IMG/VR virus record: IMGVR_UViG_3300020202_000212 | Coordinates: 1-24,273 of that record | Origin: a virus | DNA length: 24,273 nt | Direction: 5' to 3' (one strand) | Made by a program: the position numbers and the translations under genes | Shown here: piece by piece, positions 2,694 through 17,599 of the stretch | Position numbering within the stretch: the stretch's first letter is position 1 | Layout: every line of letters starts with the position of its first letter | The notes under the pieces: generated by a model | The model's database searches: none | What the model was told of the DNA's origin: nothing | What the model saw: only the letters and a program-made list of their open reading frames with translations

Positions 2694-4541
2694 TTACCCC
2701 TCGGTGGTCTTGACGCTGAGGCCGTTGAGGCCGGCCAGCGTCGAGCCAAGCGCGGTGCGGAAGTACTCCGCGCCGAACCGGTTGATGTTGTTCATGTTGT
2801 CCACGGTCGCCTTCAGCGTCTCAAGCCGGAACCGCACCTGGTCGACCTGCGAGTTCAGCGCGGCGATGTTCCACTGGTTGTTCACGGACTGGTTCGCGAC
2901 GCGCACCCGGGCAGATTCTACCAGAGCCGAGACGAACGCGCGGTACGCCTCGACGTCCCCGCTCTGCGCCGCGACCTGGGTCTTGGCGCGCTCCAGCCGG
3001 GCGCTGACCACCTTCGCCAGCCCCTCCAGCTGAGCCTCGTAGCGCTGCACGGACGCGCGGTACTCCTGCAGCAGGGACTCGTTCGCCTGCAGCGTCAGGC
3101 GGCCCTTGGCCTCCTCGGCCTCGACGCGGGACTGGTGCGCGGCGATCTGCGACTTGAACACGTCCAGCTTCGCCAGCTCCCCGGCGATGCTCGCCTTGTA
3201 CATGTCGTACTCCGCCGCCTTCGCGCGCACACGCTCGCCGAACGCCATCACCCGGGTCTTGAAGACCTCGAGCTTCGTCTTCTGGATGTCGGACAGCAGC
3301 CCGGCGGCCTCGACGCGCGACTTGTACAGGTTCACGACGGTCTGGATGCCGTTCAGCTGCGCCTGGTACAGGCCGATCTTCTGCTGGTTGAACTCGCCGC
3401 GCAGGCGCTCCGCCTCGATCTGCGACTTGAACAGCTCGGCCTTCGTCAGCTCGGCGCGCATGCGGGACTCGAACACCTGCGCCTCGACGCGGTAGGCGTC
3501 GAGCTGGGCGGCGTAGTTGCGCACGCCGGCGTCGTACAGGGCCACGCCGAGCTCGACGGTCGCCTTGGCGAAGTTCAGGGCGCGCTCCTGCACAGCCTGG
3601 TAGAACTCGCGGGCCATCTGTTCGTACTTCTGGACCTCCTGGATCGTGAACTTGCGGTTCTCGACGTACAGGTCCGCGCGCTTCAGCGCGATCTCGCGGT
3701 TGACCTCGCTCATCTTGGCCTGCAGGGCCTGCTGCGCCGCGGCCACCGCCTGGTGGTACGCGCCCTGCGGCATCGGGAACGAGGACGACACGGCGCGGCG
3801 CTGGGCCTCCTCGACCGCGGCGCGGGCCGCCTGCTCCGCGCGGTCGCGGGCGCGTGCCCACAGGGCCTGCTCATCGGCGGTCTCGATGCCGTAGCCGCCG
3901 TTGGTGAGGTTGTCCAGCAGCTTCGCGACGAGCGGGTCCGCCAGGTCGGACGAGTAGCCGGTGTCGGAGTACGAGAAGACCTGCGTCGGCGCGGCGAGCT
4001 GGTTCTGCGGCAGCGTGCCGGCGAACGTCGGCAGCGTGACCGAGGGGGCCACGGGCAGCTGGAGCTCCTCGAACGTCGGGACGTTCGGCAGGGTCACGAC
4101 CGGCGCGGCCGGAGTGGCGACCTCCTCCACGCTCGGGGCGTCCGTGGGCATCGCGCCGATGTCCGCGGTAGGCGCGGTGGGCAGGGTGATCGTCGGGGCC
4201 TGCGCGTCCAGCGACGGCACCACGGCGACCGGAACGGAGAGGTCCGGCGCGGTGGGCGCGACGAGCGCGGCGATCTGGTCGATGTTCGCGTTGATCGTGG
4301 CGAGGCTCAGGTCCGGCGAGGCCACGCGCTCGTCCCGGATCTCGGTGAGCTCGGTCTCGAAGTTGAGCGTCAGCCAGTTCAGCGAGGGCAGCTCTCCGAT
4401 CTGGAAATTGATGTCCTTGGACGAGGCGAGGCCCTCGATGAACTCGTCGCCGGCGGCCGCGATGCTGTTCGCGTTCTGCGCCAGGTACGTGGCCACCGCG
4501 CTGAGCGCGTCGCTGGTGAGGGTGCCTAGGGTGAGAGCCAT
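2694..4541 (-). CDS. 615-aa long coiled-coil virion protein
   Basis: The start is ATG at 4541-4539, overlapping the upstream TAA as TAATG; the open frame further upstream is antisense noise over the neighbour. Residues 1-90 are a small globular or helical head (MALTLGTLTSDALSAV). Residues about 95-195 are Pro/Val/Thr-rich with APxVTLPxxPT-like strings (APTITLPTAP, APVVTLPNVP, APSVTLPTFA), suggesting an extended fibrous stalk. Residues about 235-580 are a continuous helix with heptad periodicity: aromatic-Lys motifs LFKSQI, LYQAQL, LYKSRV, VFKTRV, MYKASI and VFKSQI follow one another at 14- or 21-residue spacing. The C-terminal 35 residues are Gly/Leu-rich. A stalk followed by about 350 residues of coiled coil suggests a rod-like oligomer, for example a tail needle, tail spike shaft or ejected conduit protein. 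I cannot choose between these from sequence. Confidence 0.85.
   Translation of the reverse strand: MALTLGTLTSDALSAVATYLAQNANSIAAAGDEFIEGLASSKDINFQIGELPSLNWLTLNFETELTEIRDERVASPDLSLATINANIDQIAALVAPTAPDLSVPVAVVPSLDAQAPTITLPTAPTADIGAMPTDAPSVEEVATPAAPVVTLPNVPTFEELQLPVAPSVTLPTFAGTLPQNQLAAPTQVFSYSDTGYSSDLADPLVAKLLDNLTNGGYGIETADEQALWARARDRAEQAARAAVEEAQRRAVSSSFPMPQGAYHQAVAAAQQALQAKMSEVNREIALKRADLYVENRKFTIQEVQKYEQMAREFYQAVQERALNFAKATVELGVALYDAGVRNYAAQLDAYRVEAQVFESRMRAELTKAELFKSQIEAERLRGEFNQQKIGLYQAQLNGIQTVVNLYKSRVEAAGLLSDIQKTKLEVFKTRVMAFGERVRAKAAEYDMYKASIAGELAKLDVFKSQIAAHQSRVEAEEAKGRLTLQANESLLQEYRASVQRYEAQLEGLAKVVSARLERAKTQVAAQSGDVEAYRAFVSALVESARVRVANQSVNNQWNIAALNSQVDQVRFRLETLKATVDNMNNINRFGAEYFRTALGSTLAGLNGLSVKTTEG
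2915..2923 (-). promoter_or_regulatory. Possible extended -10 promoter (TGGTAGAAT)
   Basis: TG-G-TAGAAT on the minus strand is embedded near the 3' end of the coiled-coil gene, in codons CTG GTA GAA TCT. It lies about 225 nt upstream of the next gene's start (2690). No -35 is recognisable. It matches the extended -10 pattern seen at several other gene junctions here, but alone it could be chance. Confidence 0.2.
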
Positions 4542-5713
4542 TATCCAATCCTCCGCGCCAGCGGGGTCATCGGCAGCTGCATGGAGTCGAGCTCCATGGA
4601 CGCGCCGTCCATGCCGGAGAGCTCCACGCGGAAGTAGCGGGAGCGCATGCCTCGCCCGAGCGTCGCGCGCACCTGCTGCAGCACGTCGGGCGTGAAGTTG
4701 TTGATGGTGTAGTCGTAGTAGTCGTTCTCGTTCGTCCACACGCGGAGCCGCACGGGCGCGTCGAACCTCGCCGCCAGCAGGACCTCGGTCAGGCGCTTCA
4801 GGTACGCGCTCTTGCCGTCCATCATGCCGGTGCGCACGACCCAGGCGATGTCCGTGCCCGCGTCGTCGTTCCCGGTCAGCTGGAACAGCCCGCCGGGGCC
4901 GGCGGCGTAGTACGTGCCGTTGACGGGCGCGTAGCTGTTGAACGAGAAGTTCGTGTACTCGGTCACGGCGCCGCTGCCGGTGTTGGACACCCAGGTGCGG
5001 TACGTCTCCGCCAGCGTCGGCTCGGACAGGCCGGTGGCCCACGGGCGGTACATGGTGACCGCGCCGGTGGCGGTGGCCGCCGTGGCGGACGAGCCGGAGG
5101 CGGTCAGCTCCCTGAGCTCGGCGGAGCCGATCGCCACGCCGCCGTTCAGGGCGGTCGCGGTCACCCTGGCGCGGGCGAGGGTCAGGGCGCCGTTGGACAG
5201 CGCCTGCTGCGCGGAGTCGCCGTCGGCGGTGAGGGTCTGGAGCACCGCCGTGCCCCGCGCGACGCCGGTGACGGCGTGGGTCGCGGAGGCGGTCGGCGCG
5301 CGTAGGGTCAGCGCCGCGGAGGCGACCTGTCCGGTCAGCGCGGTGCCGGACGCGGTGAGCTTCGGCAGCGCGAGCGCCGCTGCGTCGGGGATGGTCGCGC
5401 TGGCGGTGAGCTTCGGCAGCGTGAGTGCGGCGGAGCCGACGGTGCCAGCGCTGGCCTCGCCGGTGGACGTCAGGCGCTCGGCGACTACCTCGGCCTCGCC
5501 GACGGAGCCGCTGGACCCGGCCCCGGTGGAGGTGAGCTGGCGAGTGGAGACCCCCGCGCCGGCTGCGCCGGCGGAGGAGGTCGGCTTCGGGATGGAGAGC
5601 GCGGCGCCTGCGGAGCCGGCAGCAGCGGTTAGGTTGGGGAGTCGTGCGACACCGCCAGCCGCCCCCGCTGTCGCCGACAGCGCCGGCAGCGTGAGCGCAG
5701 CGGTGTCGGACAC
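4541..5713 (-). CDS. 390-aa virion protein with N-terminal LTLPxLTASGT-type tandem repeats
   Basis: The GTG start at 5713 has AGGGG about 6 nt upstream. Residues 1 to about 215 are about eleven degenerate repeats of 16-22 residues around the core AALTLPKLTASGTxxxG; clear copies are AALTLPALSATAG, ARLPNLTAAAG, AALTLPKLTASAT, ALALPKLTASGTA and AELRELTASGSS. Such Ala/Gly/Thr beta-type repeats occur in phage appendage proteins. Residues about 220-390 form a non-repetitive domain rich in aromatics (TYRTWVSNTGSGAVTEYTNF, NENDYYDYTINNFTPDVLQQ) that ends in MTPLARRIG and looks like a compact beta-sandwich attachment or binding domain. It shares a 1-nt TAATG junction with the 615-aa gene, so the two are probably translationally coupled and work together. 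The exact virion location is unknown. Confidence 0.82.
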   Translation of the reverse strand: MSDTAALTLPALSATAGAAGGVARLPNLTAAAGSAGAALSIPKPTSSAGAAGAGVSTRQLTSTGAGSSGSVGEAEVVAERLTSTGEASAGTVGSAALTLPKLTASATIPDAAALALPKLTASGTALTGQVASAALTLRAPTASATHAVTGVARGTAVLQTLTADGDSAQQALSNGALTLARARVTATALNGGVAIGSAELRELTASGSSATAATATGAVTMYRPWATGLSEPTLAETYRTWVSNTGSGAVTEYTNFSFNSYAPVNGTYYAAGPGGLFQLTGNDDAGTDIAWVVRTGMMDGKSAYLKRLTEVLLAARFDAPVRLRVWTNENDYYDYTINNFTPDVLQQVRATLGRGMRSRYFRVELSGMDGASMELDSMQLPMTPLARRIG

Positions 5714-5724
5714 CTATGCCCCTA

Positions 5725-6501
5725 TTACGCCGTCGGGATGGTGATGGAGAAGCTCGAGATCGTCTGGACCGCGCTCGCGGTGATAGACGTGGACGCCATG
5801 TTCAGCTCGGCGCCGCTCGTGGCGATGGCCCCGTCGATCCGGAGGATGGCCTCCGAGGAGTCCGTGCCGCCCGCGTCAGACACGGCGGCCTCGATGCGGA
5901 ACCAGCCGGCGGTGCCCGTGGCAGCCGCCACGCCCGACCAGGTCTCGCTCGGGTGCTTCACCAGCACGCCAGCGGCCGAGTCGCCCCAGGTGAGGGCGTT
6001 CACCGCGGTGACGCCGCCCGCCATGTTGCTGTCGGTCTTCGTGAGCGTGGTCACCGTGGACGCGACCACCCAGCCGTTCGGCAGGGAGCCGAGGCCCGGC
6101 TTCGCGCGGATGTTGATCTTGTCCGTGTCGGACACGTCCGCGGTGAAGAGCAGGTTCTTGGGGTTGTTGTTGATCGCCGTGGCGACGAGCGAAGCCGTGT
6201 TGGCCAGGGACGTCGTGTAGGTGACCGCCGAGGGCAGGATCGCGATGGAGTTCACCGTGATCGCGTCGACCGAGCCCGAGGAGCCGCCCGTCAGGTCGAC
6301 GGAGCCGACCGACAGGACCTCGCGCGTGATCGCGCCGCTGGCGTTGGAGTAGGTCACGAGCAGCGTGCCCGACGGCGCGGTCTCGGCCGTCGCCGGCTGC
6401 GAGCCGGTGTAGACCTTGAGCACGCAGTTGGACATCATGTGCTTGAGCGAGCCCGTCTCGAGGAGGGCGTTGCGGAGGGCTGCGGAGAGTCGAAGTGCCA
6501 T
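5725..6501 (-). CDS. 258-aa beta-rich phage structural protein
   Basis: The ATG at 6501 has AGGGGAA about 7 nt upstream. The N-terminus MALRLSAALRNALLETGSLK followed by VLKVYTGSQPATAETAPSGT is a recognisable opening of a conserved phage protein family found among tail or appendage genes, but I know of no firm function. The remainder alternates Thr/Val/Ile-rich strands with Gly turns, including a central section (NIRAKPGLGSLPNGW, DSNMAGGVTAVNALTWGDSA) and a C-terminal part with WSGVAAATGTAGWFRIEAAV and SSEAILRIDGAIATSG, consistent with a jelly-roll or beta-sandwich fold. There is no signal peptide or membrane segment. It sits between the 403-aa protein and the repeat protein in the same operon, so a tail or baseplate role is the best inference. 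Confidence 0.82.
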   Translation of the reverse strand: MALRLSAALRNALLETGSLKHMMSNCVLKVYTGSQPATAETAPSGTLLVTYSNASGAITREVLSVGSVDLTGGSSGSVDAITVNSIAILPSAVTYTTSLANTASLVATAINNNPKNLLFTADVSDTDKINIRAKPGLGSLPNGWVVASTVTTLTKTDSNMAGGVTAVNALTWGDSAAGVLVKHPSETWSGVAAATGTAGWFRIEAAVSDAGGTDSSEAILRIDGAIATSGAELNMASTSITASAVQTISSFSITIPTA

Positions 6502-6514
6502 GTGTAGTTCCCCT

Positions 6515-7726
6515 TTACTGGTACGCGTTGGGCGCTGAGCCCGTTCCTTGGAGAGTGCTGATGTACTGCACGTAGCCCCGCTCCAGCCTTACCACTCCCG
6601 CTCCCCGCTGCGCCGCGGGGAACGAGTACCTGTCTTCCGTCAGGTTCCTGACGACTCCGCCGCTGTGCCCGAGGACCACGCCGTACGGGGAGGTCCAGAA
6701 CACCACCGGGCGGCTCGCCTCGGCCCCGTCCTCGGCGGTCACCGTCGCGTCGTCCCGGACCGCCGTGCCAGGGATGGCGCCGTAGCTGAGCACCTGCGTC
6801 GCCTTCATCTCCGACGGCTCGTGGCCGCGGAGGAACCAGGTGCCCGTCTCCGTCGCCGCGTAGATCCCGTCGTCCACCGGGGCGAACAGCGCGATGCGCC
6901 CGGGGAGCTGCAGGTACCGCGTGCGGCTGAAGTGCTCCAGCGAGAACGCGTCGGAGTACCACGCCACGCTGCCCTCTACCACGTAGGCGATGCTCGCGTG
7001 CACCGCGACTATGTCGCCCGCCGGCGCCGCCTGCCGGAACTGCGTCTGCAGGGGCACCCCGAGGTCGTAGCCGCCGTTGGTGTACGTGTGCGTGGTGGCC
7101 GTCGCGGGCAGGGTTACCGCCCGGTACAGCTCCTCGCCGTCGGCGTGGCTCAGGTACAGTATTTTACCAGTAACCTCTGGATTTGTCGAGGTTTCCATTC
7201 CGGAGAAGGCGATGCCGCCTGGGGCGGTCAGCTCGACCATCCCGGCGACGCCGGTGCCGCTCTCCTGGCCGTCGGCCCGGAGGAACGTCATGGCGTACAT
7301 GTAGCGCCCGGCGGGCAGGGTGCCGACGGTGGCCGCGGCCTTCGGCTGCCCGGCCGGGGGCGTGACGCCCCACTGCAGGGCCTCGCCGCGCGTCACGCGC
7401 AGGCTGTCGACCCCGTTGGACAGGTAGACCACCCCGTTGAGCTCGGCGTAGCTGACGTGACGGCCGGACGTCAGGCGGCGCAGCTGCGTCAGGGAGCCGC
7501 TGGCCTCGATGCGCTTCAGGTCCTGGCCGGACACCACCAGGGCGGTGCTGTCGCCGCTCCAGAGGGAGTGGTAGGAGCCGCCCTGGAGCAGGGTCTGCCC
7601 GCGGCGGGTCAGCACCCGCGCGGAGTCGTCGATGTCCACGTTCTGCGCGACAGACAGCTCCCCGGGCTTAAGCCGCTCGGGGGCGGTCGTGTTCTGCAGG
7701 CCGGCCCACTTCTTGATCTCGATCAC
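6515..7726 (-). CDS. 403-aa probable tail/neck structural protein
   Basis: I chose GTG at 7726-7724: it overlaps the Rz1-like gene's TGA as GTGA and has GGAGGGGAA just before it. A TTG five codons upstream would also be in frame. The N-terminus (IEIKKWAGLQNTTAPERLKP, then VAQNVDIDDSARVLTRRGQT) is characteristic of a conserved phage structural protein with an 'NVDID...RRG' opening. The body contains repeated beta-blade-like units such as LVVSGQDLKRIE, AELNGVVYLSNGVDSLRV, HASIAYVVEGSVAWYSDA, APVDDGIYAATETGTWFLRG and FWTSPYGVVLGHSGGVVRNL, suggesting a beta-propeller. Proteins of this type are usually placed in the tail hub or tail tube of short-tailed phages; here that is inferred from pattern and context. 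The middle carries an unusual A/T-rich patch (see 7161-7189). Confidence 0.82.
   Translation of the reverse strand: MIEIKKWAGLQNTTAPERLKPGELSVAQNVDIDDSARVLTRRGQTLLQGGSYHSLWSGDSTALVVSGQDLKRIEASGSLTQLRRLTSGRHVSYAELNGVVYLSNGVDSLRVTRGEALQWGVTPPAGQPKAAATVGTLPAGRYMYAMTFLRADGQESGTGVAGMVELTAPGGIAFSGMETSTNPEVTGKILYLSHADGEELYRAVTLPATATTHTYTNGGYDLGVPLQTQFRQAAPAGDIVAVHASIAYVVEGSVAWYSDAFSLEHFSRTRYLQLPGRIALFAPVDDGIYAATETGTWFLRGHEPSEMKATQVLSYGAIPGTAVRDDATVTAEDGAEASRPVVFWTSPYGVVLGHSGGVVRNLTEDRYSFPAAQRGAGVVRLERGYVQYISTLQGTGSAPNAYQ
7161..7189 (-). promoter_or_regulatory. Sigma70-type promoter inside the 403-aa gene (TCGACA-N17-TAAAAT with extended -10)
   Basis: On the minus strand a -35-like TCGACA (7189-7184; five of six to TTGACA) is followed by exactly 17 bp and TAAAAT (7166-7161; five of six to TATAAT), with TGG directly before the -10. 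The underlying codons (AAT CCA GAG GTT ACT GGT AAA ATA) are much more A/T-rich than the gene around them. The element points toward the genes at 6501 and beyond, but the nearest start is about 650 nt away. It may be an internal promoter. Expression is not shown by sequence alone. Confidence 0.5.
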
Positions 7727-9331: not shown

Positions 9332-10081
9332 TTAGATACCCTGGAGCGTAGTTCGGGTCTTAGACAGCGCCTTCTTGCCCCGGCTCCACGCGCCGCAGCC
9401 GGTCGGGCCCACGCACTGGAAGCGCGGGTACCTGACGTCGCGCGTCACCGCGGACCCGCGGCGCTGCAGCGTGTGCTCCTCGCCGCAGTTCGGGCACACG
9501 GTGGGGCGGCCGTCGAACGCGCCGTGGTGCGGGTGGTTCTTGACCCACGGCTTCAGCTTGTCGTACAGCTTCTCGAGCAGGATGACGTCGCCGCGGTTGT
9601 ACTTCTCCATCTTCGCCCAGGCTGCGTCGTCTCCAGCCATGCAGTCCACCCACATCTGGAACCCGGGGTGCCGCACCTTGCCGCCGAGGCCTAGCGTCTG
9701 CGCCACGTAGTCGAGCTTGTTGATAGGGAAGCGGAACTGGTCGCGCACCACCGTCAGCAGGTCCACCTGCTTGTACGGCGCCGGCGGCGTCATGCCGTGC
9801 GTGACGAACTCCTTGTTCAAGGTGGGGATGTCGAACGACCGACCGTTGTAGTGGATCACCACGTCGGCCTTGTCGAGCAGCTTGTGGATGCGCTTCAGCA
9901 TCGTCTTCTCGCCGTCGCGCACGGACGAGAACATTGTCTCGCTCTCGCCGTACCACTTGGCCGACCAGCACAGCACGTGGCCCTTGGCCACGATCTTGTC
10001 CATGCTGATGTTCTGCTGCCACATGCCCCACACGTAGGCGAGGTTCGGCGCAGTCTCGATGTCGAGCAGAAGAATCTTCAC
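9332..10081 (-). CDS. DEDD-type 3'-5' exonuclease (RNase H-like) with C-terminal zinc ribbon
   Basis: The start is GTG at 10081-10079, overlapping the upstream TGA as GTGA; translation in this frame further upstream is antisense-like. The 249-aa product shows the three exonuclease motifs: LLLDIET (Asp7, Glu9), HYNGRSFDIPTLN (Asp84) and YNRGDVILLEKLY (Tyr161/Asp165, the YxxxD form of motif III). These residues would hold two metal ions for 3'-5' removal of nucleotides. An NKLDYVAQTLG stretch before motif III is typical of the RNase_H_2/DnaQ-like group. Residues about 190-249 add a zinc ribbon with Cys196/Cys199 (CPNCG) and Cys223/Cys229, probably for nucleic-acid binding. Its location among lysis and structural genes, coupled to a protease-like gene, is unusual for a replication enzyme. 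It could act in host DNA breakdown, late repair or genome-end processing; that is speculation. Confidence 0.85.
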   Translation of the reverse strand: MKILLLDIETAPNLAYVWGMWQQNISMDKIVAKGHVLCWSAKWYGESETMFSSVRDGEKTMLKRIHKLLDKADVVIHYNGRSFDIPTLNKEFVTHGMTPPAPYKQVDLLTVVRDQFRFPINKLDYVAQTLGLGGKVRHPGFQMWVDCMAGDDAAWAKMEKYNRGDVILLEKLYDKLKPWVKNHPHHGAFDGRPTVCPNCGEEHTLQRRGSAVTRDVRYPRFQCVGPTGCGAWSRGKKALSKTRTTLQGI

Positions 10082-10524
10082 GGTTTCCCTTCGGTGAGCT
10101 GCATCACAGTGATGGACCCGCCGGTGGCGGGGTCGTACTTCATGGCAACCTCGACCGCCTTGCGGAGGTCGGCGCCCATCTCCAGCGCGCCGGTGGCCCA
10201 CCGGGCGCCCGAGCCGATCGCGAAGAACTTCGCGTCGATCTTGAGCCACTCCGGGTCGCGCCCGTCGAACGTGAAGATGCCGTCCCTGCTCAGCCGCACC
10301 GCGGCCGTGTCCTTCGTCAGCTTCGGCTTGCGCCCCTTGCCGCCGGCGCGAAGCCACTCCACCAGCCGCAGGCCGCTGGCGGTGTCGCCAGCGGTGCCGA
10401 CGAGCTCGTCGCCGATGCGGTAGATCTTGTTGGAGAACGAGGTGTTGTAGACTTCCTTCCCTTCCGTCCAGGAGACGCGGGTATCAGCCGCCATCGCCTC
10501 GGGCGTGCAGACGATCGTTGTCAC
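10078..10524 (-). CDS. HslV/proteasome-like Ntn hydrolase
   Basis: The GTG start at 10524 gives a 148-aa protein beginning MTTIV. Removing Met would expose Thr2 as the N-terminal nucleophile, as in HslV and proteasome beta subunits. Other expected residues are present: Asp14 in AADTR (equivalent to Asp17) and Lys33 in SNKIYRIGDE (equivalent to Lys33). They are followed by LVGTAGDTASG, the FAIGSGARWATGALEMGAD oxyanion/structural region and a closing helix with KYDPATGGSITVMQL. The length is close to the Ntn core and shorter than HslV, about 175 aa. There is no partner ATPase here. Phage Ntn hydrolases of this type are known from sequence, but their substrates are not. Possible roles are virion-protein maturation or host-protein turnover. 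The gene overlaps the exonuclease by 4 nt and follows a small membrane protein. Confidence 0.82.
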   Translation of the reverse strand: MTTIVCTPEAMAADTRVSWTEGKEVYNTSFSNKIYRIGDELVGTAGDTASGLRLVEWLRAGGKGRKPKLTKDTAAVRLSRDGIFTFDGRDPEWLKIDAKFFAIGSGARWATGALEMGADLRKAVEVAMKYDPATGGSITVMQLTEGKP

Positions 10525-10879: not shown

Positions 10880-11182
10880 TTAGATTGTGCTACCAGTGTA
10901 CCACGTGGATACGCCGTCACTAATGAGTATACGAGAGCTGAACTGCGACACGAGCGAGAGGGACGCCGCGCCCTCGATCGTGTCGCTACCTGCCCTAGCG
11001 ATCGACGCGGTGTTGATCCCGCTACTGATGCGCTTGATGAACAGGAACTGCGCCTTCGACGCTGCGGGCAGCGTTATCGTGACGTTTCCGCCCGCCGTGT
11101 CTATGAGGATGGTCCCGTCCTCGGACGTGGCCGTGTAGTCCGAGGTGCAGATAACGTTCGTGAGGCCTGCAAGCGAGCCCAT
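10880..11182 (-). CDS. 100-aa tail-fibre-tip-like beta protein
   Basis: The ATG at 11182-11180 overlaps the fibre stop as TAATG. The product (MGSLAGLTNVICTSDYTATS) carries a pattern common in phage fibre tips and appendage domains: DGTILIDTAGGNVTITLPAA, then FLFIKRISSG, IARAGSDTIEGAASLSL and a closing SDGVSTWYTGSTI. It is all beta strands with Gly turns. It reads like the distal domain of the preceding 395-aa fibre but as a separate reading unit. It could be a fibre-tip subunit, a fibre chaperone, or a domain that has become a separate gene. The last codons hold a promoter-like TGGTACACT for the next genes. Confidence 0.8.
   Translation of the reverse strand: MGSLAGLTNVICTSDYTATSEDGTILIDTAGGNVTITLPAASKAQFLFIKRISSGINTASIARAGSDTIEGAASLSLVSQFSSRILISDGVSTWYTGSTI
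10895..10903 (-). promoter_or_regulatory. Possible extended -10 promoter (TGGTACACT) before the accessory/lysis genes
   Basis: TG-G-TACACT on the minus strand lies 29 nt upstream of the 50-aa gene's ATG, at the structural/accessory boundary. A start about 7 nt downstream would give a short leader that includes the GGAG ribosome site. No good -35 is present at 17 bp (TTAGTG). Its place at a module boundary raises its value. Confidence 0.4.
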
Positions 11183-12369
11183 TACGGCGCCGTGGTCGAG
11201 TGGGTCCAGGTCGTAGTCGACCCGTCCAGCGGAATGGAGAGGTAGTTCATCGTGCCTCCGACGTTGTGGGCGATGACGAACTTGTCGGCCTTGCGGTACA
11301 TGGCAAAGGAGTCGTCCGCGTCCAGCTCGGTAGTGGTGGGGTTGGCGTCGGCCTCGTCCATGATCTGCCAGCCGCCGCCGGTGGTGGTCGCGGCCATAAA
11401 ACTGACGATCTCCGCCACCGACCCGCCCGACGCCCTCGCACTGAATCGTATGATTCCACCGACGCCGGTCGAGTTGTTCGCTATGGTGCCGGTCGTGTCG
11501 AAGGTGATGTTCGTCGCTTCGACGTAGCTGCCGGTCGAGCCTACGTATGCGCGACCGACGATTTTGACTATGTCGTCGCCCGAAGTTACAGCCACCGGTG
11601 TCGAAACACTACCGCGGGCCTTCCTGAACGTCACCACATACGGCGAACTGTCGGCGAAGATCTTGAAGAAGAGCAAGTTCCCCCCGCCAGAAAATCTGGC
11701 GTCCTCAACCCCGCCCGAGGCGAACGACAGAGTGCCGCTAGTCATGTACATACCGGTGGTGGCATCTTCCGCAAACGAGTACGTCGGTACCGAGGCGGAG
11801 CCGTTCGCAGCGAGGATCTGCGCCGTCGAGGGCGACACGCTGAACACATGTGAACCGCGCGAAAGCACCTTGAGCGGTGACATGGTGCTAGCCGCTAAGG
11901 TGTCAAGCTGCAGTAAAACTTGATTCGGTACGCCACCGGTGCTCGTGCCGTTGGTAGCCGCTGCCGACTCGCTGAACCGAAAAGCGACCTCGTTATTTGT
12001 CGTCTTAGCCCAATTCCAGCGGATGATGTTGTCGCCGTTGGCTATGCCGGTCTGGTCCGCAGCCGCGGCCGTAATCTGGTCTAGGGTGCGGCGCTCGAGC
12101 ATGTACTGGTCCAGTCCGCCCTTCGTAATGACGTGCGCGATCGTCGCGCCGCTGCTGTGCGACGCGGCCGTCGTGCTCTCGACGCCCCGGGTGACGGTCC
12201 AGTTCGTGCCGCCGCCCACGCTCGTAACGAGCATGAGCTCGTCGTCGACGCGGACGCGGAAGTTGGCCGCGGGGGCGCCCGTGCCGGACGTGACCGTGAC
12301 CGACGTGGTAACGTTGTCTATGGCCCCGTTCAGGGTGGTCGCGAAGTCGTTGCCGAGGTTCTCAGCCAT
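11182..12369 (-). CDS. Tail fibre / receptor-binding appendage protein, 395 aa
   Basis: The ATG at 12369 has GGAAGG about 9 nt upstream and overlaps the previous stop by 8 nt. The N-terminal about 90 residues (FATTLNGAIDNVTTSVTVTS, VRVDDELMLVTSV, WTVTRGVESTTAASHSSGAT, HVITKGGL) form a module often seen at the attachment end of phage fibre proteins. The middle has LQLDTLAASTMSPLKVLSRG and SFAEDATTGMYMTSG. The segment RKARGSVSTPVAVTSGDDIV with RAYVGSTGSYVEATNITFDT, GGIIRFSAR and AHNVGGTMNYLSIPLDGST is typical of phage fibre shaft and head-binding regions. The fibre would mediate host recognition. Unlike many fibres it has no obvious enzyme or chaperone domain, and the distal domain may be the separate 100-aa gene that follows. 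Confidence 0.85.
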   Translation of the reverse strand: MAENLGNDFATTLNGAIDNVTTSVTVTSGTGAPAANFRVRVDDELMLVTSVGGGTNWTVTRGVESTTAASHSSGATIAHVITKGGLDQYMLERRTLDQITAAAADQTGIANGDNIIRWNWAKTTNNEVAFRFSESAAATNGTSTGGVPNQVLLQLDTLAASTMSPLKVLSRGSHVFSVSPSTAQILAANGSASVPTYSFAEDATTGMYMTSGTLSFASGGVEDARFSGGGNLLFFKIFADSSPYVVTFRKARGSVSTPVAVTSGDDIVKIVGRAYVGSTGSYVEATNITFDTTGTIANNSTGVGGIIRFSARASGGSVAEIVSFMAATTTGGGWQIMDEADANPTTTELDADDSFAMYRKADKFVIAHNVGGTMNYLSIPLDGSTTTWTHSTTAP

Positions 12370-13708
12370 GCTTATCTACCTTCCACTCCGTGGACCTGGC
12401 CTCAGATGCGACCGAGCGACGTGTCACTTTTGCCGTCCAAACCACAGACGCAGCTTTGGCCGCGTATAGAACGCCGCGACGGGCCGTGCGCCAGACGGCG
12501 TCAGAAATGTCTAGTATACCAGAGACGAGCTGCCGCACGAATTCGGCGGCGACGGACAATGTCGCAGCGAAAGCCCTGGCGGTTCTGCGCGAGACCTGAG
12601 CCGACAAGCCGAGCGTAGAGGTCAGAGCTCTGAGGAACGACTTGGTGACGGACAGCACCCCCGACGAGCCTAGCGCGCCTACCAGAACCTTACCGGCCTG
12701 CCCAAGCAGTGCGCCGGCGGTGCTGAATACCCCGGCCATATTCAAAACAGCGCGCTTTGCCACGGTTCCCGCATACGATTGAGCGCCTGCAATCGCACGG
12801 AGGGTGGACTTCGCGGCCGAGCCAGATGCCGAGAGGGCGGCTGAGAGGCCGCGCGCCGCGGCGCGCGAGCACGCTCCGGCGAGGCCGGCGGCGCCGGACA
12901 ACACCCGCGAGGTAGACTTCGAGAACACGCCCGCCGGACCGAGAGCCGCCTCGAAGGCCCGCAGGAAGGCGGCGGCGGCGGCGAGCAGCCCGGAGTACGA
13001 GAGCGAGCCGGACAGCGCCCTGGCGGTGGACTTAGCGACGGCGGCGGAGCTGGACAGTTCGCCGGACAGCTGCCTTGCGACGTACCTTGCTATTTCTCCT
13101 GCGAAACCCATCGCCCCGGCGAAGGCCCTGGACACATGCCTGGACACTGCTCCCGCGGTGCCGAGGGCTCCCGCCAGGGCTTTGCCGGCTTGCCCGACCA
13201 GCGAGCCGAGCGAGCCGAGCGAGCCGGCGAGGGGGCGCCCGGCGGTCTTGAGGGCGGAGCCCGCGAGCCCCAGGGCGGCCGAGGCCGCGGTGGACGTGTG
13301 CCGGGCGCAGGCGCCGGCGAAGCCGGCGGCGGACTCCAGCACGTGGGTGACCGCGCGCGACAACGAGCCGAGCGAGCCGAGCGAGCCGGCGAGGGCCTTG
13401 CCCGCGCGTCCCAAGAGCGAGCCGGCGGAGGACAGAGTGCCCGCGAGGGCCCGAGAGGTCGTCGCGAGCGCCGCGCCGGCCAGGCCGAGCGCGGCCGAGG
13501 CGGCCGTCGCGACGGCTCTGGCGCACGCGCCGGCGAGGGCATGGGAGGCCGATAGCACCTTACCGCCCATCTTCGTGGCTGCGCCGGCGAACGACAGGGC
13601 GGCGCTGAGCCCGGACTCGTACAGAGTGCCGCAGGCTTTGCTGGACGCAAGCTGGAACGCACCCAGGCGAGAGCATATTAGGGCGAGACGTCCCGTGTAT
13701 GCGGACAC
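12362..13708 (-). CDS. 448-aa protein built of about twenty 18-residue Gly/Ala/Leu repeats
   Basis: The GTG at 13708 has GGAG 8 nt upstream. Residues about 31-395 consist almost wholly of 18-residue units with the consensus aGaLgxaGxlxrxxxraL; examples are AGSLGSLGSLSRAVTHVL, SAALGLAGSALKTAGRPL, AGALGTAGAVSRHVSRAF, AGAMGFAGEIARYVARQL and SAALSASGSAAKSTLRAI. A few units have 20 residues (SGSLSYSGLLAAAAAFLRAF). Each unit has hydrophobic residues at fixed positions, small residues at the turns, and a basic residue near the end. The C-terminus (about 400-448) is non-repetitive and cationic. I recognise this style of 'L-x-G-x-L...G-x-L' repeat from phage structural genes but know no function. It could be a solenoid, a fibre shaft or a membrane-interacting protein. 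It lies between the lipoprotein and the tail fibre. Confidence 0.8.
   Translation of the reverse strand: MSAYTGRLALICSRLGAFQLASSKACGTLYESGLSAALSFAGAATKMGGKVLSASHALAGACARAVATAASAALGLAGAALATTSRALAGTLSSAGSLLGRAGKALAGSLGSLGSLSRAVTHVLESAAGFAGACARHTSTAASAALGLAGSALKTAGRPLAGSLGSLGSLVGQAGKALAGALGTAGAVSRHVSRAFAGAMGFAGEIARYVARQLSGELSSSAAVAKSTARALSGSLSYSGLLAAAAAFLRAFEAALGPAGVFSKSTSRVLSGAAGLAGACSRAAARGLSAALSASGSAAKSTLRAIAGAQSYAGTVAKRAVLNMAGVFSTAGALLGQAGKVLVGALGSSGVLSVTKSFLRALTSTLGLSAQVSRRTARAFAATLSVAAEFVRQLVSGILDISDAVWRTARRGVLYAAKAASVVWTAKVTRRSVASEARSTEWKVDKHG
12513..12521 (-). promoter_or_regulatory. Possible extended -10 promoter (TGGTATACT) before the tail fibre gene
   Basis: TG-G-TATACT on the minus strand lies in the 3' part of the repeat-protein gene, in codons GGT ATA CTA, which are rare here. 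It is about 145 nt upstream of the fibre start at 12369. No recognisable -35. Five of six match to TATAAT plus a TG extension. Confidence 0.4.
12520..13618 (-). repeat. Array of degenerate 54-bp coding repeats
   Basis: The 18-residue protein repeats correspond to 54-bp DNA units. Most have diverged, but a 32-bp block is repeated exactly at 13202-13233 and 13364-13395. The offset is 162 bp, three units exactly. The shared part encodes AGSLGSLGSL, itself containing short GAGCCGAGC tandem copies. This indicates recent duplication or recombination within the array and so possible length variation between related phages. Confidence 0.8.
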
Positions 13709-13709
13709 T

Positions 13710-13982
13710 TTAGTACTCCGTGTTCCCCTCGGCGCACTTCCAGACTTCGAGCCCGAGTGTGCGCAGGCGCTCGCCGTCGGCGGAGTGACGGGGCCACTGC
13801 ACTATGATTTTACACCCTCCGGTGGCGTCCAGCCGCCGCCAGCAGCCGTAGTTCGGTAGCACTGACGACCCACAGTTGCGCGCGTCGCGCACCTCGTCGA
13901 GCGTGTTGGCCCTGACGAACTCGAAGCGATCGGCCTGGCCGGCGCACGCGGACAGGAGCAGAGCGAGCAGCGCCCAGCGCAC
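13710..13982 (-). CDS. Small secreted lipoprotein with four additional cysteines
   Basis: The GTG at 13982-13980 shares its last-stop base with the upstream TAG (TAGTG). The 90-aa product begins MRWALLALLLSACAGQADRF: a short basic start, a hydrophobic core and a canonical lipobox LSAC with Cys13 as the lipidated residue. The +2 residue is Ala, not Asp, which favours the outer membrane in enteric-type sorting. The mature domain has Cys37, Cys47, Cys57 and Cys83 (NCGSS, GCWRR, GCKII, WKCAE), enough for two disulphides in the periplasm. It is not part of the Rz/Rz1 pair, which lies 5 kb away. Phage lipoproteins of this size sometimes block superinfection by masking a receptor; that role is a hypothesis here. 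It is co-transcribed with appendage genes. Confidence 0.8.
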   Translation of the reverse strand: MRWALLALLLSACAGQADRFEFVRANTLDEVRDARNCGSSVLPNYGCWRRLDATGGCKIIVQWPRHSADGERLRTLGLEVWKCAEGNTEY

Positions 13983-14806
13983 TAGCCGCCCGAGCTGATC
14001 GTCAGCGTGTAGGTGAACTGGATCGAGTCGCCGTTCACCACGTTGATCGCTGAGAAGACTTTGCGGTCCCACAGGACCGGGCGGATGGTGTACGCCTCCG
14101 TGGTCGGCCCCGTGCCGACGGTGCCGTCGGACACCTTGTACCACGCGGGGATGGTGATGACGCTCGTGGTATTCGAGATGACGAAGCCGTACACCGGGGT
14201 GGCAGTCGCCGCCTCGAAGATGTGCTGCTGGAAGCCCTGCACCGTCGAGCTCGACGCCGTCAGCGCGGTGCCGGTCGTGGTGCCGGTCGTGGCGGTGGAC
14301 GACGTGAACGGCGAGCCGGTGGTGGCAGTGCGGGTGGCGCTCGTGTGCAGGCCCCACTCGGTCACCGCCTCGGTGCCGGTGTAGCTGATCGTCGCCACGG
14401 TGCGGTACTTCTGCGAGTTCGCAGCGGACACCAGCGATTGCGTGCCTGCGACGGCCGTCTCGCCGCCGACTGTCGAGATGGTCTCGAGCTTGATGTCGGT
14501 GGCGGCGGCGGCAGTGGTGCCCTTGCCGCTGAAGTGCTGGTTCGCGAGGAACAGCGTGTTGATGCGGGCGCCGGAGGGCGACGCGAGGGTCACCGCCTCG
14601 TTGGCGATGGCCAGCGCGCCCACGTTCGTGACGAGGCCCGAGCCGAGGTCCATCTCGCCCTGGTACTTGCCGCGGTGGAACAGCGTGGCGCGCAGATTCG
14701 TGCCCCAGTCGAGCCCAGCCAGGTGGCGAGCGGCATCGTTCGCGCCGGCCATGCCCATGAGGATGCGGCGGTTGCCGAGCCAGGGGATGCTGATGAAGTT
14801 TCTCAT
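13982..14806 (-). CDS. 274-aa phage virion structural protein, beta-rich
   Basis: The ATG at 14806 has AGAGG about 7 nt upstream. The N-terminus (MRNFISIPWLGNRRILMGMA) is followed by DWGTNLRATLFHRGKYQGEM and LGSGLVTNVGALAIANEAVT, then NTLFLANQHFSGKGTTAAAA. The central part is Thr/Ser-rich (SATRTATTGSPFTSSTATTG). The C-terminal segment (VISNTTSVITIPAWYKVSDG, then WDRKVFSAINVVNGDSIQFT, ending YTLTISSGG) is a typical end of phage proteins that form beta-sandwich appendage or neck subunits. It has no signal peptide. It is preceded by small Ig-like and beta-rich genes and followed by the lipoprotein. I recognise the class of virion protein but not a specific part. Confidence 0.82.
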   Translation of the reverse strand: MRNFISIPWLGNRRILMGMAGANDAARHLAGLDWGTNLRATLFHRGKYQGEMDLGSGLVTNVGALAIANEAVTLASPSGARINTLFLANQHFSGKGTTAAAATDIKLETISTVGGETAVAGTQSLVSAANSQKYRTVATISYTGTEAVTEWGLHTSATRTATTGSPFTSSTATTGTTTGTALTASSSTVQGFQQHIFEAATATPVYGFVISNTTSVITIPAWYKVSDGTVGTGPTTEAYTIRPVLWDRKVFSAINVVNGDSIQFTYTLTISSGG

Positions 14807-14902: not shown

Positions 14903-14912
14903 TTTGCGCCGC

Positions 14913-15194
14913 TCACAGCTGCCTCACGACCAGGTACCCCTCACCCTCGAGTGTGTTGCTCGCCGACGTGATGACCACGAAGGTCACCTTGTACGTCGTG
15001 TCGGCCGTGCCGCCGGAGATGCGCACGGTAGCCTTCGTGCCGCTCGCCGCGGCACCGGTCAGGGTGAGGCCGGCCGGCGACGCAGTGCAGCTGCTCACAG
15101 ACGTCACCGTCTCTCCGGCCGCGAGGTTCGGAGCGAACTCCATAGTGTACAGCCGGCTCTCGCTCGGCTGCTTGATCAGCGACCCGACTCCCAC
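14913..15194 (-). CDS. 93-aa Ig-like/beta-sandwich virion protein
   Basis: The GTG start at 15194 lies 4 nt after the previous stop; the ribosome site is weak, so the start is somewhat uncertain. The product reads MGVGSLIKQPSESRLYTMEF followed by APNLAAGETVTSVSSCTASPAG, ATVRISGGTADTTYKVTFVV and SASNTLEGEGYLVVRQL. The 'L..GET(V/I)xSV...SGGTADTTYxVTxxxxT' pattern is that of short Ig-like phage proteins which lie among neck and tail genes and may serve as fibre or tail adaptors or decorations. The size and position agree. No enzyme activity is expected. Confidence 0.78.
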   Translation of the reverse strand: MGVGSLIKQPSESRLYTMEFAPNLAAGETVTSVSSCTASPAGLTLTGAAASGTKATVRISGGTADTTYKVTFVVITSASNTLEGEGYLVVRQL

Positions 15195-15198
15195 TGGA

Positions 15199-15846
15199 TT
15201 ACGACACTGCGCCCGTGGTGAACGGCGTGGCCTCTGTGCCGGTCGCGGCCGACACGATTCGGACGGCCCACACGTCCGTCGCGATGTCCTCGAGCTCCAC
15301 CGTGGCGCCTTTCGTGCCGCCCGTGGTGGTGCCGTTGAGGTTTATCTGGTCGGCGTCCGTGCCCGCCTCGAACAGCACGCTGGTGTCGCCGCCGTCCTGC
15401 GCGAGCGTCGCAGTGCCGAAGAAGGCGTCGTTACCGACCACGTTAATGCGGTGCTGGTTGGACGTCGCAGCCACGGACACGACGAGGCGGAACCGCGCGC
15501 CGCTGCCGGTGGCAGCCGGAAGCGTGATCGTGGTGCCAGCCGCGGTGTCCAGCAGGACGGTCTTGCCGTCGTGCGCGGCCGCGGTGAGGGTCAGCGAGGA
15601 GCCGCCCGCCACGAGTCGCGTGGACACGTCGGCGACGCGGTCGAGCTCGGCCTGCGAGGCTTCGAGGCCGTCGAGCTTGTCCAGCTCAGCCGCGGTCAGG
15701 CCCTGCGGGATGGCGACCCATTTGCCCGGATAGCCGGACTCGGTGCACTCCCACACGGTGCTGCCGGAGTCGGTGAAGGTGTCGCCCTTGAGGAACTTGC
15801 CCGAGCGGGGCTTGCCTGAAATGGTAGAGCTGGAGTACGCAGCCAT
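15199..15846 (-). CDS. 215-aa appendage/tail-fibre-like structural protein
   Basis: The ATG at 15846 has AAGGGAG about 9 nt upstream. Residues 1-48 (YSSSTISGKPRSGKF, STVWECTESGYPGKWVAI) are a small beta module with a WECT...GKW pattern. Residues about 49-80 hold LTAAELDKLDGLEASQAELD, a leucine/aspartate motif common in phage fibre shafts. Residues about 82-215 are beta strands (DGKTVLLDTAAGTTITLPAA, GARFRLVVSVAA, HRINVVGNDAFFG, DIATDVWAVRIVSAATGTEA). The protein shares the 'TILLDTAGGxxTITLPAA' theme with the 100-aa fibre-tip gene at 10880-11182, suggesting related folds or duplication. A promoter-like TGGTACAAT is 42 nt upstream of its start, giving it a short leader of its own. Confidence 0.8.
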   Translation of the reverse strand: MAAYSSSTISGKPRSGKFLKGDTFTDSGSTVWECTESGYPGKWVAIPQGLTAAELDKLDGLEASQAELDRVADVSTRLVAGGSSLTLTAAAHDGKTVLLDTAAGTTITLPAATGSGARFRLVVSVAATSNQHRINVVGNDAFFGTATLAQDGGDTSVLFEAGTDADQINLNGTTTGGTKGATVELEDIATDVWAVRIVSAATGTEATPFTTGAVS

Positions 15847-15873
15847 GATGGATGCTCCCTTGGATTGGCGCGG

Positions 15874-16596
15874 TTACAGTCCGCCGTATTGTACCACACG
15901 GGGGCGGTACCGGCGTCGTTCGACTTCCTGCTTGACTTCCTTGGCGTACGCCTCGAAGGCCTGCCGGTTGAGCTCAGCCTTCTCGTCGTCGCGCGTCTCG
16001 GCGTCCTGCTTGCTGTAGGCCAGGTACTTCATCCACTTGAGCAGGTGCATGTGGTGGTGCTCGTCGATCTCGAGCGGGATGGCGTCCCAGTCCGTGATGC
16101 GGGGGTACGGCAGGCGGTATACGTGCAGGCGGCACGTGTCCGTGGCGTCCGGCACCTTCACCCACCGCACGTTCTTCTCCTTGATCCCGAGCACGCCGTA
16201 CTGCACCTGCCCGGTGTCCGTGTCGTCCAGCGTCAGCGAGCCGAACGACCCGTAGTCCGGGATCGCCTCGGCGGACACCGACAGATCCGACTCCTGCAGG
16301 AACTGCACGTCCCGACGCGCGGTCACGAGCCGGCCGGACCGGATGCGCAGGATGTACTGGCTGTGGGCGGTGAGCGGGGTGTTCAGCGTCACCGCCAGGT
16401 CCTGCAGGCGCAGGGAGGCGCCGGACCCGATGTCCGCCGCCGCCACCGTCACGTCCGTGATCCCGCCGAAGCGGCGCACGAGCATGTCCTGCGCGTCGAT
16501 CATGTAGCGCAGGACCTCGTCGTCGCTCCACAGGTGCGGCGCGGCCTCGTCGGCCACCTGCGCGCGGAACTCCTCCAGCAGGGCCTGCGTCTCCAT
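15874..16596 (-). CDS. Head-to-tail adaptor (neck) protein
   Basis: The ATG at 16596 has AGGGG about 7 nt upstream and follows the previous TAA by 3 nt. The 240-aa product opens with METQALLEEFRAQVADEAAP then HLWSDDEVLRYMIDAQDMLV and RRFGGITD, the hallmark of phage adaptor proteins that bind under the portal ring ('WSDDEVLRYIDDAQ...GGI'). The middle is beta-rich (SLRLQDLAVTLNTP, ILRIRSGRLVTARR). A conserved aromatic/His region follows (HVYRLPYPRI, EIDEHHHMHLLKWMKYLAYS), then a long charged helix (EKAELNRQAFEAYAKEVKQE). The helix-strand-helix layout matches neck adaptors that extend the portal channel in short-tailed phages. The location after head genes and before appendage genes agrees. Confidence 0.86.
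   Translation of the reverse strand: METQALLEEFRAQVADEAAPHLWSDDEVLRYMIDAQDMLVRRFGGITDVTVAAADIGSGASLRLQDLAVTLNTPLTAHSQYILRIRSGRLVTARRDVQFLQESDLSVSAEAIPDYGSFGSLTLDDTDTGQVQYGVLGIKEKNVRWVKVPDATDTCRLHVYRLPYPRITDWDAIPLEIDEHHHMHLLKWMKYLAYSKQDAETRDDEKAELNRQAFEAYAKEVKQEVERRRYRPRVVQYGGL
15888..15896 (-). promoter_or_regulatory. Possible extended -10 promoter (TGGTACAAT) before the 215-aa gene
   Basis: TG-G-TACAAT on the minus strand overlaps the last codons of the adaptor gene. A start about 7 nt downstream gives a leader of about 35 nt that includes the AAGGGAG ribosome site of the 215-aa gene. No -35 is visible at 17 bp, which is tolerable for an extended -10 promoter. Confidence 0.45.
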
Positions 16597-16599
16597 CGG

Positions 16600-17046
16600 T
16601 TACCCCTTCTTCAGCAGCTCGGGCTTGAGGCGGGTCCAGATGCCGCGGATTTCCTTCATGTCCACGCGCCAGCCGAGGGCCGCGGTGAGAGTGGTCGGGC
16701 TCGGTACCCCGCCGGCCGTGAAGTCGGACGGGTTGTTGCGCTCGACGACCGCGCGTATGGCCTGCTCAATCGCCACGTCCCGCTCCTCCTGCGTCTCGGG
16801 CGCCAGCAGCACCTTCTTCGGGGTGCCCTGGGCCTCCGTCATCGCCTCGACGTCGATGCCGCCGCCGTCGGCGACGGGCAGGATGCCTTTCTCTATCAGC
16901 TCCGCGTGCATCGGCTTCGGCGCGTGCATCGGTACGCCCTTCACGAACTCGAGGGAGTACCCGCGGGTGGAGGTCACGACGATGTCGCGGTTGGAGACGA
17001 ACATGTACTGCGGGGGCAGCGGGACTTCTTTGCGAGCCTGGCTCAT
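16600..17046 (-). CDS. 148-aa conserved phage protein between capsid and neck genes
   Basis: The ATG at 17046 has AAAGGA 7 nt upstream and is the first gene after the intrinsic terminator. The N-terminal half (QYMFVSNRDIVVTSTRGYSL, EFVKGVPMHAPKPMHAELIE) resembles a small phage domain with a 'V.ST.G.S.EF.KGVPT.VP..MH' pattern. The C-terminal half (RNNPSDFTAGGVPSPTTLTA, ALGWRVDMKEIRGIWTRL) resembles the 'DF...G.P....L....G..V...E....W' helical module found in head-associated proteins of several phages. I know no firm function. Order next to the decoration and adaptor genes suggests a head-completion or neck component. The 73% or so of residues in helices and short strands is typical of that group only in a loose sense. 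Confidence 0.78.
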   Translation of the reverse strand: MSQARKEVPLPPQYMFVSNRDIVVTSTRGYSLEFVKGVPMHAPKPMHAELIEKGILPVADGGGIDVEAMTEAQGTPKKVLLAPETQEERDVAIEQAIRAVVERNNPSDFTAGGVPSPTTLTAALGWRVDMKEIRGIWTRLKPELLKKG

Positions 17047-17068
17047 TGCGTTCCTTTCTCTGCGGTTG

Positions 17069-17098
17069 AAAAAACAAGGGGGCCGTAGGCCCCCTTGT
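17069..17098 (-). terminator. Strong Rho-independent terminator ending the capsid unit
   Basis: On the minus strand an 11-bp perfect stem (ACAAGGGGGCC paired with GGCCCCCTTGT, 17098-17074) with a 3-nt TAC loop is followed at once by a run of T residues ending at 17069. This is a textbook intrinsic terminator for leftward transcription. It falls between the 156-aa gene's stop (17129) and the 148-aa gene's start (17046). No T run follows the hairpin on the plus strand, so it works in one direction. Confidence 0.93.
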
Positions 17099-17128
17099 AT
17101 CTAGCCCTTGTCACCGGGCAGCGACCGG

Positions 17129-17599
17129 TTAGGTCGTCTTCAGGTTCTCGTTCGCGCGGCCCGGGATCACCATGTCCACCGCCACGATCACGCGGCCAGC
17201 GGTCGCGTCGTCCGTGGTGTTGGTGATGGTCAGGCGGATGTTCTGGTTGCCGGCGTACACCTTGCCGTCGCCCAGCATGTCGAACCCGGTCGCCGGAGCG
17301 TCGGGGTCGGCCATGTTGATGGCCGCCGCCTCCGTGTAGCGGTCGAGGTCGTCGGAGTCGCCCACGTCGACGGTGTTGCCGCCGCTCGAGTTGAACGCCG
17401 TGACCACGATCACCCTGCCGCCGACCACAACAGCGTTGGGCGGTGGGGTGAAGATGTCGTAGGTCGTGTTCGTGCCGGACGTGGTCTTGCCGAAGGCCAC
17501 TTCGGCCCCCGAGGTGTTGACCATCGTGTCGGTCGCGCTGAAGTCGAACACCGCAGTGATGGGATACTGCGCGTTCGCGAGTTTAAGCAGCTTGGCCAT
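17129..17599 (-). CDS. Probable capsid decoration/head protein, 156 aa
   Basis: The ATG at 17599 has CAGGAG about 9 nt upstream and lies 16 nt after the major capsid stop. The product is all beta-like (MAKLLKLANAQYPITAVFDF, FTPPPNAVVVGGRVIVVTAF, VYAGNQNIRLTITNTTDD, GRVIVAVDMVIPGRANENLK), with alternating Val/Ile strands, short Gly/Asn turns and no membrane segment. Small beta-rich proteins directly after an N4-gp56-type capsid gene commonly serve as decoration or cement proteins on the capsid surface. The gene shares the capsid promoter and sits just before a strong terminator, so it should be made in amounts close to the capsid protein, which fits a stoichiometric decoration subunit. Direct evidence is lacking. 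Confidence 0.78.
   Translation of the reverse strand: MAKLLKLANAQYPITAVFDFSATDTMVNTSGAEVAFGKTTSGTNTTYDIFTPPPNAVVVGGRVIVVTAFNSSGGNTVDVGDSDDLDRYTEAAAINMADPDAPATGFDMLGDGKVYAGNQNIRLTITNTTDDATAGRVIVAVDMVIPGRANENLKTT

Follow-up and report, generated by a model that had tools for sequence, protein, structure and literature searches.

What does a virus make of a protein that consists almost entirely of 18-residue repeats? The question is raised by a gene on the minus strand of a 24,273-base linear viral fragment, IMG/VR record IMGVR_UViG_3300020202_000212 (here the window, meaning the whole stretch analysed). An earlier note on this DNA had described about twenty units of very regular length, running from residue 31 to about residue 395, and had suggested that they form a solenoid, a fibre or a membrane-interacting surface. 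We rate at about even the chance that the 20 units of the protein form a rigid stalk of beta structure and strongly basic charge, part of a surface appendage of the phage. The gene and its parts are as follows:

12362..13708, minus strand: array gene, 448 amino acids, comprising a 31-residue N-terminal cap, 20 repeat units and a 53-residue C-terminal cap
12524..13615, minus strand: the array, 20 units (residues 32-395) of 18 residues each, except units 12 and 18, which have 20
13616..13708, minus strand: N-terminal cap (residues 1-31), ending in CGTLYE, without a lectin domain (class B)
12365..12523, minus strand: C-terminal cap (residues 396-448), which aligns with the C-terminus of the array protein of the relative L129

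Autocorrelation of the protein under BLOSUM62 peaks at lags of 18 (z 12.8), 36 (z 9.9) and 54 residues (z 8.9), values that none of 500 shuffles reached at any of these lags, and gives no signal at lags 6 and 9 (z 1.3 at lag 6, 1.4 at lag 12 and -3.0 at lag 9). When a profile of units from other viruses is used to segment the protein, it returns exactly 20 units over residues 32-395, spaced by 18 residues 17 times and by 20 residues twice, in agreement with the earlier count and limits; the two 20-residue units are AAAAAFLRAFEAALG and LSVTKSFLRALTSTLG. Mean unit-to-unit identity is 32%. At the DNA level, identity within the gene is 43% at a lag of 54 bases versus about 29% at lags nearby; of the three codon positions the second varies least between repeats, as for real coding sequence. 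No recent DNA duplication was seen in the array, in that no 90-nucleotide stretch is repeated at 72% or more. Because unit identity is 32%, no 90-nucleotide repeat is present and codon position 2 is the best conserved, the sequence indicates that the array is old and maintained at the protein level. The protein contains 46 Lys and Arg against 11 Asp and Glu (net charge +35, pI 11.5), with 3 Asp in 448 residues.

Searches by tblastn or by pattern with the window protein alone found no relatives in phages, viral contigs or the PDB, its alanine-rich composition and low-complexity masking probably hiding it from direct searches. A degenerate DNA pattern for the unit L-x-G-x-L-x-x-x-G-x-[hydrophobic], with an exact 54-base period, was run on IMG/VR and matched at least 120 stretches in frame, versus 3, all copies of one sequence, when lengthened by one base as an out-of-frame control. 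Most of the first 120 in-frame stretches were low-complexity sequence (LLGLLG, LQGSLP) and were dropped by profile score, which left 34 seed loci. A three-unit profile built from 20 of these, with the window excluded, scores the window protein at E 1.7e-40 (135.8 bits), while the best of 200 shuffles reached E 0.014 at a more permissive setting. By this profile match the window protein is a member of a family of 18-residue basic phage repeats, of which about 90 IMG/VR loci carry an array. A stricter two-unit pattern finds 75 viral stretches, 70 of them within loci that pass the profile. In 257 Gb of genomes from bacteria and archaea it matches 78 stretches, and just two of these, both on metagenome-assembled contigs (L214 and L217), look genuine; on these counts the family is essentially viral.

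The family has no model in Pfam or NCBIfam, only marginal matches in PHROGs, and no sequence match in the PDB, so that the earlier statement that no solved structure is known for the repeat holds at the sequence level. The weak NCBIfam and PHROG matches (SclB, MarR, collagen-like) were set aside as matches of composition, those in NCBIfam lying far under the curated cut-off. When canonical relatives were searched by tblastn in 50,697 phage records, the one match, a weak one, was to Phage C48C1, which the repeat profile does not confirm as a family member; given BLAST masking, absence from these records by tblastn is not proof of absence. A literature search found no existing description of the repeat, a miss that open-access coverage makes weak evidence.

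The anatomy of the unit was compiled from 95 proteins and 1,663 units, and reads [KR]-[SA]-L-[AS]-G-[TA]-L-[TS]-[SFP]-[AS]-G-[AT]-L-x-[KR]-x-x-x, with Lys or Arg at positions 1 and 15, Leu at 3, 7 and 13, and small residues at even positions. Gly occupies position 5 in 90% and position 11 in 95% of units, and Pro position 9 in 20%. The single basic residue per unit proposed in the earlier note is thus replaced by two preferred basic positions, and across the family Lys and Arg make up 10.8% of array residues versus 1.7% for Asp and Glu. Odd positions carry 14.8 bits versus 6.7 for even ones, a split reached by 67 of 48,620 choices of positions. The spacing between units is 18 residues in 1172 cases, 20 in 282, 19 in 30 and 21 in 13 (another count in relatives gave 436 of 18 and 141 of 20), and the extra residues of the 20-residue units fall between positions 13 and 1. 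The regularity of length noted earlier is therefore kept among relatives in the spacing, while copy number ranges from 4 to 72 (median 15 units). Since the odd positions are conserved and insertions come in twos, beta structure is favoured: strict alternation and two-residue gains fit a beta strand with one buried face, not a helix.

Structure prediction agrees with this. AlphaFold2, given ten window units and 49 aligned segments, predicts for the monomer a regular, all-beta, solenoid-like model without helix (mean predicted local distance difference test score, pLDDT, of 77 and of about 90 at the C-terminal end; predicted template modelling score, pTM, of 0.66). An independent full-length AlphaFold2 model of a relative (L067) has the same 15-residue strands and 3-residue breaks as the window model, with no helix in the array, a pLDDT of 80-84 over its best stretch and a disordered linker; its N-terminal domain is predicted to have a ConA-type lectin fold (VIA Z 16.2). 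VIA-align superposes the window model, a predicted one only, on the beta-helical region of 3P4G with a Z of 17.3 and a root-mean-square deviation (r.m.s.d.) of 2.1 over 180 of 180 residues at 8% identity. The best Foldseek match in a library of viral models (BFVD) is A0A6J5M2L1, with a probability of 1.00, template modelling scores of 0.65 and 0.58, an r.m.s.d. of 3.1 over 179 columns, 17% identity and E 0.2. Families of diverged repeats have been judged likely to be accurate in solenoid prediction (PMC11795689). These models point to a beta fold, probably a solenoid.

Members of the family differ in what precedes the array. An N-terminal domain of at least 100 residues (class A) is present in 49 of 94 members, and 29 of the 69 members with a complete 5' end have a short N-terminus, among them the window protein, whose 31 residues have no Pfam match. 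In many members a GGTxYxQS-like cap stands before unit 1; the window protein has the comparable CGTLYE-SGL there, and its N-terminal cap aligns locally with that of L129 (GTLYESGLSAALSFAG / GTVFNQAVSGTLAFVG). Among 47 sequences of relatives scanned, 10 N-terminal regions matched lectin-type domains of Pfam (LamG 8, malectin 1, F5/F8 1). L321 (3012-5030) has an N-terminal domain and the array in one protein, and L068 (2072-4820) encodes that domain in a separate upstream gene; the two domains are 58% identical, and the L068 array starts with the same unit as the L321 array.

A second gene accompanies the array. It is found in 55 of 90 array loci, on the same strand in all 55, and among other viral loci in 5 of 173. 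Since about 18 of the 55 had gone into the seed of the partner profile, the independent count is lower, yet still far above background. The partner proteins of L071 and L122 match phrog_5417, a family of unknown function. The earlier note had proposed that the array protein possibly links the lipoprotein or fibre encoded on either side; the better-supported genomic partner is this gene, which lies in the window just beyond the lipoprotein gene. Its linkage to arrays is common in the family and not universal. The neighbours of the array gene are:

13982..14806, minus strand: partner gene, 274 amino acids, conserved, recognized by co-occurrence with arrays
13710..13982, minus strand: small lipoprotein, 90 amino acids, with an LLSAC lipobox read by eye, between the partner and array genes
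11182..12369, minus strand: tail-fibre-like gene, with a match to phrog_11439 (tail fiber) at E 2e-5 over residues 12-82

The array open reading frame (ORF) starts with GTG at 13708, with GGAG 7 nucleotides upstream, and its TGA stop overlaps the ATG of the tail-fibre-like gene at 12369; translational coupling of these two genes is likely. The lipoprotein (13710-13982, minus strand) contains several cysteines. The capsid protein of the window shares 58% identity with its counterpart in Pseudomonas phage KPP25 (Kochitakasuvirus), and the minus-strand order of portal, scaffold, capsid, head genes, array region, and lysis and tail-associated genes fits a KPP25-like podovirus. No ORF with the 18-residue repeat was found in the syntenic interval of KPP25, Acidovorax AP1 or Aeromonas phiA008. 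The closest relative is L129 (capsid 78%), whose array protein of 378 residues is 31% identical to that of the window and whose array gene directly adjoins the partner gene and a fibre-like ORF. Between the head genes and the array of L129 (14193-16990, plus strand) lie ORFs of which some look by eye like a glycosyltransferase, an HNH endonuclease and a methyltransferase. Another capsid relative, L146, has a 749-codon ORF 3' of its head genes (14906-17152, plus strand) with a different repeat, GVxATSAAGTLxASG. The window itself encodes a second repeat protein (4541-5713, minus strand), with periodicity at lags 16 and 21 in its A/L/T/S-rich half; its C-terminal half matches phrog_26502 (virion structural protein) and is conserved in KPP25 and AP1. 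In the late region a 148-residue ORF (10078-10524, minus strand; MTTIVCTPEAMAADTRVS...) resembles by eye a proteasome-beta or Ntn-hydrolase protein.

Other explanations of the repeat have to be weighed against these data. We give next to no credence to the idea that the ORF is not a gene and that its repeat arises from low-complexity, GC-rich DNA or from a gene on the opposite strand. The ORF does overlap an antisense ORF of 358 codons, and low-complexity antisense repeats were among the matches of the first pattern searches; however, in L129, the nearest relative with enough flank, a homologous array gene lies next to the partner gene and on the strand expected, the pattern is found in frame far more often than one base shifted, and the sense strand gives a strong profile match. 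It is very improbable that the units are amphipathic alpha-helices, in which 18 residues would make five turns, acting on membranes or forming a helical fibre. The hydropathy of the window array does peak at a period of 3.6, and the array is alanine-rich, with simple propensities that tilt it slightly towards helix (Pa 1.05, Pb 0.97), whereas 31 of 35 relatives favour beta; against helices stand the frequent Gly at positions 5 and 11 and Pro at position 9, the two-residue insertions, each of which would turn a helix by 200 degrees, and the absence of helix from the array in both predicted models. The propensities of the window array count against a beta-structured stalk, as do several further observations. 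A Foldseek search of the window model against the PDB gave no match with E below 0.1, and AlphaFold2, unlike AlphaFold3, gives confident but unrealistic solenoids for repeat sequences (PMC11795689). The window protein itself has no lectin domain. Finally, the array is present in only one (L129) of 80 capsid relatives, many of these short fragments, a distribution that marks it as accessory and evolving fast, as an adhesion module would be expected to be, and not as a core part of the virion.

A beta fold could also be built from several chains. The array might be a homotrimeric beta shaft of the triple beta-spiral type known from adenovirus and reovirus, in which the unit would be two antiparallel strands joined at the G11 turn and three chains would be intertwined; we consider this rather unlikely. 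The repeat of triple beta-spiral shafts is about 15 residues long, against 18 or 20 here, no PDB shaft is matched in sequence, and the predicted monomer packs well without partners. On the other side, viral fibre shafts are usually trimeric, the array gene overlaps a tail-fibre-like gene, and the AlphaFold2 model has 15-residue strands separated by breaks of 3 residues at G11. The alternating hydrophobic residues and the turn containing Gly or Pro likewise resemble beta-spiral units, which consist of an antiparallel strand pair joined by a tight Pro/Gly turn (PMC7565637). It is improbable, to a greater degree, that the protein is a basic virion protein that binds DNA or another polyanion internally and is no external stalk: the pI, the net charge and the excess of Lys and Arg throughout the family would suit such a role, but the lectin-type domains of relatives point outward, the array gene adjoins a fibre-like gene, and a copy number of 4 to 72 with sporadic presence is ill suited to a packaging protein.

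If the protein is instead the external beta-structured stalk, each unit would form one coil of a right-handed beta-solenoid, with L3, G5, L7, L13 and residue 17 stacked inside the coil and G11 in a tight turn. The Lys or Arg residues at positions 1 and 15 would then lie at the corners of the coil, giving ladders of positive charge along the rod, and two-residue insertions would preserve the in-out alternation of the strand. We infer a location in a virion appendage from gene order and from the lectin-fused relatives. About half of the relatives would have a further domain at the N-terminus of the stalk, several of these of lectin type, whereas in the short class, including the window, such a domain would be missing or come from a gene of its own. 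The stalk probably functions jointly with the partner protein (13982-14806), and its basic charge may also let the rod bind lipopolysaccharide, capsule, teichoic acids or other polyanions. The interpretation in the earlier note thus survives in part: a solenoid or fibre is supported by the all-beta prediction, the solenoid-like model, the late structural cluster, the tail-fibre-like overlap and the lectin-fused relatives, while the data do not support a membrane-interacting surface: hydropathy averaged over 19 residues goes no higher than 1.61, and most units carry one or two Lys or Arg.

More tentatively, and with a probability we would set a little short of even, the family as a whole is a virus-specific type of fibre stalk. 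It would be a beta rod with ladders of lysine, its length fixed by the number of units and its tip (LamG, malectin, F5/F8 or another domain) open to exchange, and with its conserved partner it would make up an adhesion module of two genes that is widespread in uncultured phages and has hardly been seen in cultured ones. The repeat recurs in many unrelated environmental phages and has almost no counterpart in cultured phages by tblastn; array genes are labelled hypothetical or overlooked entirely because no Pfam, PHROGs or NCBIfam model exists. A stalk with exchangeable lectin tips would give sequence searches a marker by which to find the adhesion proteins of uncultured phages, together with a testable partner gene and a simple modular scaffold whose length could be read from sequence. 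The diverged repeats are also a useful natural test of the beta-solenoids that AlphaFold2 frequently calls.

Among known systems, a candidate variant of the family is encoded by the related podovirus MW202615 (Podoviridae sp. ctwe8250; 4710-7709), where K-v-L-s-I-S...I-I-K-Q units are spaced by 18 and 38 (18+20) residues, with a comparable 20-residue unit. There G5, L7 and G11 are replaced, and the profile gives an E of only 0.009 (hhalign probability 51), so that membership is not established. The 1000-codon ORF concerned (MW202615.1, L004, plus strand) has an N-terminal part that looks Ig-like, and GenBank calls small antisense and other coding sequences in its place. The 8-residue unit and pentamer of the Orsay beta-bracelet (PMC7565637) do not match a period of 18. 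Left-handed beta-helices of the hexapeptide type (GlmU, LpxA, LpxD) share 18 residues per coil and turn up in the fold search, at an r.m.s.d. of about 11 Å, but have a period of 6, which the window array lacks. The RTX and Marinomonas primoryensis antifreeze protein (MpAFP) families carry calcium motifs (GTGND or GGxGxD, in 9- or 19-residue repeats) that are absent from the window protein, with its 3 Asp and period of 18; because these defining motifs are missing, the window protein is, by sequence, a member of neither the RTX/MpAFP nor the hexapeptide family. Triple beta-spiral shafts share with the array short repeats, alternating hydrophobic residues, a Gly/Pro turn, an elongated fibre and a knob-on-stalk plan, and differ in being obligate trimers with a shorter repeat and no sequence match, the model here being of a monomer only. 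A fold similar to that of the window model is predicted for A0A6J5M2L1, an uncharacterised protein of an uncultured phage. The closest fold by VIA-align, a likeness that rests on the predicted window model, is region IV of the M. primoryensis antifreeze adhesin (3P4G), a right-handed beta-solenoid of similar coil length that is part of a surface adhesin (PMC3492233); its 19-21-residue repeat xGTGNDxuxuGGxuxGxux binds calcium, whereas the window protein has no GTGND and Lys or Arg instead. By analogy, the stalk may work like those of other phage and bacterial adhesins.
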